The notes under the pieces: generated by a model
Seen by the model: only the letters and a program-made list of their open reading frames with translations
Told to the model about the DNA's origin: nothing
The model's database searches: none
Translations under genes and position numbers: made by a program
Shown: in pieces, positions 49,497 to 51,924 of the stretch
Layout of the letters: the number at the start of each line of letters is the position of its first letter
Position numbering within the stretch: position 1 is the stretch's first letter
Assembly (NCBI RefSeq): GCF_900177045.1
Contig: NZ_LT841358.1
Coordinates: forward strand, 1,673,559-1,737,558
Length of the DNA stretch: 64,000 nt
DNA from: Candidatus Nitrosotalea okcheonensis
GTDB taxonomy: Archaea; Thermoproteota; Nitrososphaeria; Nitrososphaerales; Nitrosopumilaceae
Direction of reading: 5' to 3'

Positions 49497-50549
49497 ATGA
49501 ATGCTGCAAGAATAGTAAAAGTAAAAGAACCACTTGAAATCCAGTCTCTTGAAACTCCAAAACCTCGCGGTTCCCAAGTTCTCATTAAAGTAGAATCAGC
49601 CGGCGTATGTCACAGTGACATACACCTGTGGGATGGCGGATATGAGGGTCCTGCCGGTTCATTCATGAAAACAACTGATAGGGGTGTAAAGTATCCATTG
49701 ACTCCTGGACATGAGGTAGCTGGAATAGTGGAGAGTATGGGTGAGGATGTAGAAGGATTTGTAAAGAATGAAAAAGTTTTGGTGTTTCCTTGGATAGGAG
49801 AAGGTCTGTGTCCAGCTTGCAGAGTTGGCGAGGAAAACCTTTGTGACAAGCCTAGATCCTTGGGTGTTTACAATGATGGCGGTTATGCCGAATATGTTCT
49901 TGTTCCACATTACAGATATCTGGCAAAAATAAATGACATGGATACAGATGTATGTGCTCCTCTGTCTTGTTCTGCTCTTACTGCTTATGGTGCAATCAAG
50001 ACTGCTAAATTAAACCCTGGTGATAATGTGGTAGTTGTAGGTGCTGGAGGTCTTGGATTGATGGGTATACAGTTGGCCAAAGCCATCAGCGGCGCAAGAA
50101 TAATTTCATTAGATGTTAATGATGATAAATTAAAAATTGCAAAACAAAGCGGAGCAGACTTTACTATCAATTCCGCCAAGGAAGATCCTGTAAAAGCCAT
50201 AATGGAATTAACAGGCAACTTGGGAGCTGATGCTGTAATTGATTTTGTTAATGCTACAAAATCAGTAGAAACTGATATGCAGATACTCAGGCGTAGAGCA
50301 CGTGTTGTTCTTGTAGGACTCTTTGGTGGCTCTCTACAACTAAATCTTGTAACAATGCCTACTAGGGCATACAAGCTCATGGGTTCATACACCGGTTCTA
50401 TGACTGATATGATAGAATTGATTTCGCTTGCTCGCAGAGAAATAATAAAGCCTGTGATCTCAAACAGATTCAAACTCAACCAAGCTACGGAAGCGCTAAC
50501 GATGCTCAAAGAAGGAAAGATAATCGGCAGGGGAATTATTAATCCATAA
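49497..50549 (+). CDS. Zinc-dependent medium-chain alcohol dehydrogenase
   Basis: A 350-residue MDR enzyme. Catalytic zinc residues C38 (AGVCHSD) and H72-E73 (PGHEVAG) are present, and NAD binding GAGGLGLMG follows. The structural zinc site is E102-x2-C105-x2-C108-x7-C116, with Glu in place of the first Cys as in the Sulfolobus solfataricus enzyme. It oxidises alcohols or reduces aldehydes. In AOA such enzymes are candidates for the semialdehyde reductase steps of the 3-hydroxypropionate/4-hydroxybutyrate cycle; I cannot assign this one. A mobile element begins 7 bp after the stop. Confidence 0.9.
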   Translation: MNAARIVKVKEPLEIQSLETPKPRGSQVLIKVESAGVCHSDIHLWDGGYEGPAGSFMKTTDRGVKYPLTPGHEVAGIVESMGEDVEGFVKNEKVLVFPWIGEGLCPACRVGEENLCDKPRSLGVYNDGGYAEYVLVPHYRYLAKINDMDTDVCAPLSCSALTAYGAIKTAKLNPGDNVVVVGAGGLGLMGIQLAKAISGARIISLDVNDDKLKIAKQSGADFTINSAKEDPVKAIMELTGNLGADAVIDFVNATKSVETDMQILRRRARVVLVGLFGGSLQLNLVTMPTRAYKLMGSYTGSMTDMIELISLARREIIKPVISNRFKLNQATEALTMLKEGKIIGRGIINP

Positions 50550-50564
50550 ACTCTCTGATTGTAA

Positions 50565-50582
50565 GGTTCTGTCGGGTTGTCG
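50565..50582 (+). repeat. Left terminal inverted repeat
   Basis: GGTTCTGTCGGGTTGTCG. It is the perfect inverse of the right repeat and is flanked outward by the GATTGTAA duplication. Confidence 0.9.
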
Positions 50583-50602
50583 GGCGATAAATAATTTGGA
50601 CA

Positions 50603-51751
50603 TCATTTCTTCCCTACAATCAACTTGCTTCCATCGACTCGCAGGATTAGTGGCGTGTCCACGTTCCCGTTCACCGCTTCAATTGGAAACCCTCGAGGAT
50701 GGCAAAACCTACTCCACCCCTTGTAAGCAATATTCATGGATGCAATTACATCCCTGTCCATCGTTCTCTTACAATTAATGCACAACAATTTTCTTCGTTG
50801 AAACTTGTCCTCTTGGAGTCTATCTCCGCATATTGGACAGAGTTGGCTTGTGCGTTTAGGATCTATGAATTCAACAGGAATCCTTTCCCATTCTGCCTTG
50901 TATGCAATCTGCCTTTGCAGTTCATAGAACTACCATGAGTTTAATTTTCTGCGATACTTGTTTCCCTGACCGTTTCCCTTTCTGTATAACTTCCTGATTC
51001 CTTTCAAATCTTCCATAACTATGATTGATTTTGATTCTACGGCTCTTTGTACGATGTCCTTTGATATTTTGTGTAAATGCTGTTGTATTCTCCTGCTTTT
51101 GCGATTACCTAATCTTTGTTGGTATGATTTCTTCACTCTTACATCAAGTCTCTTGAAAGATGATATCACATGAGATGTGTTTTCTTTTATTGATAGTAAC
51201 TTGTTGGTCTTGTACATTATTGATTTTTCTCCATCAAACGTTGTGATGTTTCTGAGGTTTCTGTCTATACCAATAACGTTTTGTGGAATGATTTGCTCAA
51301 TAGTTTTTCTTACTGAGATTGAGATAGAGTTTGGTGTTATCGTGAATGAACGTGGTTCTACATTTTCTAGTTGTGATATTGTATGATTGTTTAGTTTGAC
51401 CAAAAACTTGTCGCCATGGTACATTGGAATTGACAGCAATGCACCAATTATCTTGAAACCATAGCAAGAAACTAGATATGGTTTTGATACATATGGAGAT
51501 TTTGAAGTTCTTCCCTTCTTGATGTCTTTTTTCATCAATGCCAACCTTCCAGATGCCTGAGATATTGCAGTTAACTTGTAATATGATAGTATTTTGTAAT
51601 TGCTCAGTTCCTTGTATGATAACATTGATAGTCTTTTCATGGTTGAACAATTGTTTGCTATTCCAATTCTGATACAATCATTTACCATTTGCCTGAATGT
51701 TTCCATCATGTACAAAAGTTCATGTGGTGATTGGTATGTTGTTTTATACAT
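50603..51751 (-). pseudogene. tnpB: TnpB (IS200/IS605 OrfB-type nuclease) with one in-frame amber codon
   Basis: A single frame of 383 codons interrupted only by TAG at 50930-50932. It falls within KLNSW-TAG-FYELQRQI, where TnpB usually has one residue. RuvC-like acidic residues are kept: D in GIDRNLRNI, E in IVMEDLKGI and D in MDRDVIASMNIA. The zinc ribbon is also complete, with CPICG and CINC. TnpB is a guide-RNA-directed DNA nuclease, and its 3' end normally overlaps the guide RNA. Apart from the amber codon it looks intact, so it died recently or is read through at low level. The 273-codon 5' part is longer than a minimal N-terminus but lacks the C-terminal zinc ribbon and final Asp. Confidence 0.88.
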
Positions 51752-51812
51752 TTGGTTGCCAATGATGTCCTACATAGTTGTTTTTGACGGTATTTATCGT
51801 TTGTATGTCACT

Positions 51813-51830
51813 CGACAACCCGACAGAACC
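51813..51830 (-). repeat. Right terminal inverted repeat
   Basis: CGACAACCCGACAGAACC, the exact reverse complement of the left repeat, followed by GATTGTAA. The tnpB start lies about 60 bp inside. Confidence 0.9.
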
Positions 51831-51924
51831 GATTGTAACAAAAAGTAATACAGGCACACTAAAAGTTGGCATTTGTCCAGTTGAGTTAAGATTAATACTG
51901 GATTGCAAAAGATTTTCTTCATGT

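Follow-up and report, generated by a model that had tools for sequence, protein, structure and literature searches.

A tnpB gene between the ends of archaeal IS6-like transposons in Candidatus Nitrosotalea okcheonensis, with a predicted guide RNA spanning the inverted repeat

TnpB is an RNA-guided DNA cutter and a relative of Cas12, and in the IS200/IS605 and IS1341-type elements it is found without inverted repeats or target duplication and with a Y1 transposase, in the element or acting in trans. How, then, does a tnpB gene come to lie between perfect inverted repeats and a target-site duplication, with no transposase beside it? The question is raised by a 1266-bp element of Candidatus Nitrosotalea okcheonensis, located in a window (the whole stretch of DNA analysed, 64,000 nucleotides) that covers positions 1673559-1737558 of an archaeal genome of 1.97 Mb in one contig. 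We propose, with a probability of roughly four in five, that this element and its relatives in ammonia-oxidising archaea are tnpB-carrying riders of IS6-like transposons, that their inverted repeat would form part of the guide RNA (omega-RNA), and that homing on empty alleles would leave the signature of a target-adjacent motif (TAM) beside their insertions. The proposal is built on sequence comparisons.

The element, its copies and its relatives

The ends and duplications of the element were read directly from the window sequence (50557-51838; Table 1). The terminal repeat GGTTCTGTCGGGTTGTCG recurs as its exact reverse complement at the other end (18/18, and 83% complementary when the repeats are extended to 30 nt), and both copies of the 8-bp duplication GATTGTAA are exact, as claimed by a first-pass annotation made from the sequence alone. 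That annotation was equally correct in stating that no transposase lies inside the element; nor was there a Y1 (HUH) TnpA inside it (the search for Y1 covered the element, not the rest of the genome) or an Rfam match of note within it. The tnpB gene that it named is present, but carries a single in-frame TAG upstream of the third RuvC Asp, which probably makes this copy a pseudogene at the protein level. The predicted guide-RNA region is undamaged and could work with TnpB from other copies. At the orthologous place in sister genomes, which is flanked by an alcohol dehydrogenase gene and tRNA-His, the insert is missing and the 8-mer (GATTGTAG or a close variant) stands once, and a query of the joined flanks was matched in 34 of 37 genomes of the genus, the window's own counted among them.

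A search of the genome for the repeat pattern with up to two mismatches returned 11 matches against none for the reversed pattern. The additional copies that had been predicted do exist, about eight of them (at 380284, 637710, 1824018, 1628464, 1504578, 1876033, 1611586 and 1765262), most with exact 8-bp duplications whose sequence is different at each site; the copy at 1824018 has a 7-bp duplication beside a lost base, and that at 1504578 has no duplication. Several tnpB copies of the genome are intact, among them the gene at G000:C1:1824101-1825264, and several others are only remnants. Comparable elements occur in Nitrosotalea, Nitrosotenuis, Nitrososphaera and soil metagenome-assembled genomes labelled Bathyarchaeota, all of them archaeal hosts, and the left and right repeats agree within each element, though repeat types vary between elements.

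Could these be ordinary IS200/IS605 (IS1341-type) tnpB elements, with repeats and duplication arising by coincidence or from a nested miniature inverted-repeat transposable element (MITE)? The protein does match TnpB/OrfB_IS605 families and the left flank is TAM-like, as in IS605. However, a true 8-bp duplication is evident from the empty site, 30 separate tnpB elements have repeats together with duplications of 7-8/8, and a permutation control (left flanks set against the right flanks of other loci) never equalled the score of 19 of the tested tnpB loci, which leaves this explanation with almost no credibility.

One insertion is shared by two Nitrosotalea genomes (L205:3947-5209 and L017:5019-6295), with flanks 91-95% identical and a tnpB whose 5' half is strongly diverged while its 3' part is 91% identical, a pattern that resembles gene conversion between family members. 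We had considered the occupation of one site by C1824 and L205 as independent homing events and rejected it; the flank identity and the mosaic tnpB point to an old insertion that both share, with gene conversion.

Transposase-bearing relatives with the same ends

When sister genomes were searched with the repeat itself, larger elements came to light that share these ends, are flanked by exact 8-bp duplications and encode a transposase and other cargo (L127, L128 and L126, Table 1; L144; and ca. 16 others that surround further relatives of the transposase). Insertion sequences sharing the ends, for which the first-pass annotation had advised a search, are found in these sister genomes rather than in the window genome. 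The repeats are common to the tnpB elements and to the transposase-bearing L127, L128, L126, L264, L263 and L273, and within the subtype-specific repeat interior (16 nt) about half of the tnpB elements agree with the transposase elements at 13-16 positions, more than in any shuffle (99th percentile 11). The transposase common to these larger elements scores 128.7 bits against the NCBIfam IS6 model NF033587 (cut-off 125) and matches Pfam DDE_Tnp_IS240 (PF13610, E 1.7e-13); it is ~370-390 amino acids (aa) long, with a Cys/His-rich N-terminal part (SWIM-like by eye, without a Pfam call), and its elements measure ~1.9-6.8 kb and bear passenger genes. The mover had been expected to be IS6- or IS1595-like: the former fits these scores, and an IS1595 origin found no support.

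None of the 28 transposase loci contains tnpB. Given the shared ends, the matching repeat interiors and this absence, mobilisation in trans is supported, and the duplications agree with it: the tnpB elements would be non-autonomous riders of archaeal IS6-like transposons, close to the trans-mobilised TnpB cargo first imagined for the window. One could instead see them as decay products of a transposon that once carried both transposase and tnpB, in which tnpB is inert cargo and the RNA and motif are relics of an IS605 life. The stop codon in the window copy, the several copies that are remnants and the other cargo of the transposase-bearing relatives would suit such a history, but no transposase locus has both genes, the ratio of non-synonymous to synonymous change (dN/dS) between tnpB copies is 0.13-0.27, i.e., tnpB is under purifying selection, the tnpB 3' end changes together with the repeat from one repeat subtype to the next and the TAM signature stands at many separate insertions (see below). 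We regard decay as improbable.

Several observations concern individual elements of this transposon group. L127 carries a defence gene (a type IIG-like restriction-modification enzyme) as IS6-like transposon cargo, and L130:1598-1980 (G079:C4:18097-18479) is a MITE of 383 bp that has the same ends and is flanked by the 8-bp duplication TACTTTAC. Two different IS6-like transposons stand in tandem with a common duplication (TGTTTTAG) at L264:5344-13218 (G074:C5), and an element of another genome (L276:3150-7331, G104:C2) occupies the same 18-bp sequence ATAAGAGTATTGTTTTAG, possibly a preferred or shared insertion site. The window genome has an IS6-like transposase relative in a 2.9-kb element (L151:4880-7783, G000:C1:34879-37782) with 26-bp identical ends ACTTCTGGAAAGAGAACGGGGTTTGA and the 8-bp duplication TGATGGTA. 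In the same genome, a DDE insertion sequence of another type, with direct repeats AGTTAATTGAGA and a transposase of ~347 aa, lies within the tnpB copy at G000:C1:1611586-1613987 (L013:6587-8988); it was rejected as a helper, its ends being different and the insertion simply nested.

The predicted guide RNA and the TAM-like motif

At the protein level, an intact TnpB copy scores 136.6 bits against NCBIfam NF040570 (cut-off 100) and matches PF07282 (E 3e-21), is homologous to the solved ISDra2 TnpB and Cas12f, and has RuvC residues (D167, E251, D338) and a zinc ribbon (C309, C312, C328, C331) that are invariant across 15 relatives. Over most of the last ~85 codons of 28 tnpB genes, the usage of identical codons at shared residues rises from ~1.17x to ~2x expectation, a rise to be expected if the gene overlaps an RNA. 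RNAalifold gave a multi-helix fold at the tnpB 3' end of 20 elements, with a covariation score of 0.319 against 0.129 +/- 0.010 in shuffles; when the pseudoknot is included, both partners have changed in 11 of 31 pairs, and 97.4% of cells are paired, compared with 35-54% for slid partners. Closure of the last helix comes from the right inverted repeat, and the helix is destabilised when repeats of other subtypes take its place (p ~1e-6, 34 elements, in a hairpin-swap test that took over from a noisy duplex-energy test of the terminal hairpin, p 0.004), so the tnpB 3' end has kept pace with changes in the repeat of the transposase. The repeat tip GGTTCT (AGAACC in RNA) pairs with a loop ~130 nt upstream, forming 5-6 of 6 pairs in 24 of 26 elements, a level reached by 1% of control positions, and two elements show a compensatory change, with loop GGC and tip GCC instead of GGT and ACC. 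A scaffold 3' end pseudoknotted to a place ~130 nt upstream is known from ISXfa1, where mutation demonstrated it (PMC10711439). Thus, the inverted repeat at the tnpB end looks like a working part of the predicted RNA fold, and the guide RNA that the first-pass annotation placed at the tnpB 3' end does appear to span it, on the evidence of synonymous conservation, covarying fold, hairpin swap and pseudoknot.

The two bases before the left duplication (in tnpB orientation) are T[AG], usually within TTTR or YTTR. The motif was first spotted in the window genome and then tested with boundaries called blind to it. In the first tested set of tnpB elements T[AG] is present at 22/23 left versus 2/23 right flanks (p 1.5e-9). 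Over all elements, including seven loci added later, it is present at 28/30 versus 5/30 (p 1.4e-9), and among those outside the window genome at 21/23 versus 5/23 (p 3e-6). By comparison, it occurs at 5 of the 40 flanks of 20 transposase-bearing elements (p 3e-11 against tnpB left flanks), and the flanks of tnpB-less elements lack the orientated motif. A motif following the orientation of tnpB is not expected from a transposase with symmetrical ends; it fits a TAM signature, predicted to be TTTR-like, in which case the guide would start in the duplicated 8 bp.

We postulate the following course of events. The element would be a non-autonomous transposon of the archaeal IS6-like DDE family with tnpB as its only gene, and an IS6-like transposase made elsewhere would act in trans on its ~23-bp GGTTCTGTCGGGTTRTCGAGACC-type ends, inserting it, to judge from its anatomy, with an 8-bp duplication. 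The 3' end of the tnpB mRNA would be processed into the omega-RNA, with a scaffold running through the right inverted repeat, the interior of which would close the last hairpin while the tip makes the pseudoknot that covariation supports. The guide would begin at the first base outside the element, i.e., comprise the 8-bp duplication and the adjoining flank, and TnpB would cut guide-matching sites beside a TTTR-like TAM, whether on the empty allele of a sister chromosome, on a plasmid or on incoming DNA, the break then being repaired from the filled copy. Chance insertions in which a TAM lies immediately 5' of the duplication, in the right orientation, would in this way defend and copy themselves, the others would be lost, and their loss would leave the TAM signature. 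The data suggest that insertions beside a TAM persist because TnpB decides survival. The wider claim, that a prokaryotic TnpB lineage transferred as a whole to DDE transposons and recruited the transposase's end sequence as part of its guide RNA, with TAM-dependent homing filtering the insertions and the duplication acting as seed, we hold at slightly better than even odds.

Several points weigh against this account. The same motif would arise if TnpB/TAM recognition helped to choose the site at insertion, for instance if TnpB, either complexed with its RNA or alone through recognition of the TAM, tethered the IS6-like transposase beside a TAM. The fixed distance of the TAM, which directly abuts the 8-bp duplication in 28 of 30 elements, would suit tethering, but homing predicts the same position. 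Moreover, guide-directed insertion is unlikely because the right flanks of sister copies within one genome share no seed (the donor guide did not direct insertion), and the transposase-bearing elements insert without tnpB; on balance, we consider tethering unlikely. With regard to the homing account itself, seven later loci (6/7 left versus 3/7 right) are not significant alone (p 0.27), elements L190 and L331 lack the T[AG] motif, and the window's own tnpB is interrupted. The window genome has no transposase >42% identical to the helper, which we infer from sister genomes; the best relative at 42% (L150, 5164-7499, with GGTTCTGTCAACTT-type repeats and no clear duplication) was rejected for that role and, because a close helper is absent, the genome's own tnpB copies may have lost their means of moving or may depend on a distant enzyme. 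Finally, homing-based filtering, the RNA, cleavage and transposition are all predictions from sequence.

Table 1. Features of the tnpB element in the window (window positions) and transposase-bearing elements with the same ends
Feature	Position	Length	Strand	Sequence	Basis or content
Predicted 20-nt guide (duplication + right flank in tnpB orientation)	50545..50564		-		TAM-like motif position in 28/30 elements; length assumed
8-bp target-site duplication, copy 1	50557..50564		.	GATTGTAA	sequence; single copy at sister-genome empty site; first 8 nt of predicted guide (tnpB orientation)
18-bp terminal inverted repeat, right end in tnpB orientation	50565..50582		+	GGTTCTGTCGGGTTGTCG	sequence
Predicted omega-RNA scaffold (tnpB 3' end + 3' untranslated region + whole right repeat)	50565..50720		-		doubled synonymous conservation; covarying structure, 97.4% cells paired
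Predicted pseudoknot 3' strand (inverted-repeat tip)	50565..50570		-	AGAACC	pairs with loop 50704-50709
Predicted terminal hairpin, closed by inverted-repeat interior	50571..50624		-		repeat-swap folding, p ~1e-6, 34 elements
tnpB, truncated by in-frame TAG at 50930-50932	50603..51751		-		sequence and profile matches; several other genome copies intact
Predicted pseudoknot loop (Arg-Phe codons of tnpB)	50704..50709		-	GGTTTT	at least 5/6 pairs with repeat tip in 24/26 relatives; controls 1%
18-bp terminal inverted repeat, left end in tnpB orientation	51813..51830		-		sequence
8-bp target-site duplication, copy 2	51831..51838		.	GATTGTAA	sequence and empty site
Candidate TAM, directly upstream of duplication (tnpB orientation)	51839..51843		-	TTTTG	T[AG] here in 28/30 elements
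L127	2223-7132 (G123:C14:3722-8631)	4910 bp		TTTATTGA	24-bp identical ends, 8-bp duplication; transposase and 978-aa type IIG-like restriction-modification enzyme
L128		4645 bp		CTTTGAAG	transposase-bearing; same ends, exact 8-bp duplication
L126		3168 bp		TTAAAAAA	transposase and, as cargo, NurA nuclease-domain protein (L126:4580-5422)

Known systems and significance

The first-pass annotation called the arrangement novel. The open-access literature yielded no prokaryotic TnpB in a DDE element (most subscription papers lay outside that search), but eukaryotic Fanzors, known from elements with inverted repeats and duplications (PMC3627910), precede it, and Fanzors in DDE transposons are the nearest precedent. 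Fanzor1/Fanzor2* are likewise TnpB-family nucleases within inverted repeats and target duplications, often non-autonomous (PMC3627910; PMC10711439), and for them, too, the scaffold of the guide RNA is predicted to include the inverted repeat (PMC10711439). They differ in hosts, eukaryotic and viral there and archaeal here, in the transposons concerned (Mariner, Sola, IS4-like, MuDr and Helitron as opposed to IS6-like), and in the role of the duplication, which there is predicted to belong to the RNA scaffold as well (PMC10711439), whereas here a variable 8-bp duplication appears to start the guide. With the IS200/IS605 and IS1341-type elements the archaeal ones share TnpB, an omega-RNA at the tnpB 3' end, a TAM directly 5' of the target and a guide from the right flank; in contrast to them they have IS6-like DDE ends and an 8-bp duplication between TAM and element. 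Archaeal IS6 elements, in turn, resemble ours in repeats that begin with GG and have G at position 7, in 8-bp duplications, a DDE_Tnp_IS240 transposase and the existence of MITEs (PMC7986276; PMC6807381), and differ from them in the transposase, with its length and Cys/His-rich N-terminal part given above, and in the size range of the passenger-bearing elements. A review of IS6 lists a single passenger-bearing member (ISDsp3) and leaves TnpB unmentioned (PMC7986276), while Harmer and Hall held that the archaeal members are to be separated from IS6/IS26 and may deserve their own family (PMC6807381).

These elements bear on the open question of how TnpB-only (IS1341-type) elements move, and on whether TnpB serves transposition or the survival of an insertion; mobility without TnpA was left unexplained for the TnpB-only elements of Haloquadratum (PMC3119063) and for those of six bacterial species (PMC9956272). 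In the present case the footprints allow the mover to be named, and, judged by the tnpB-less elements, it has no TAM preference of its own; therefore, the TAM signature is a clean natural experiment on the role of TnpB. The family would also represent an archaeal case of a transposon end recoded as guide-RNA scaffold, the kind of capture inferred for eukaryotic Fanzors, and it supplies a group of TnpBs for which a TTTR-like TAM is predicted and the RNA fold is well supported. If our proposal is true, a TAM-dependent homing nuclease would act as a selection filter on near-random IS6-like insertions, among which only those adjacent to a TAM and correctly orientated would persist.
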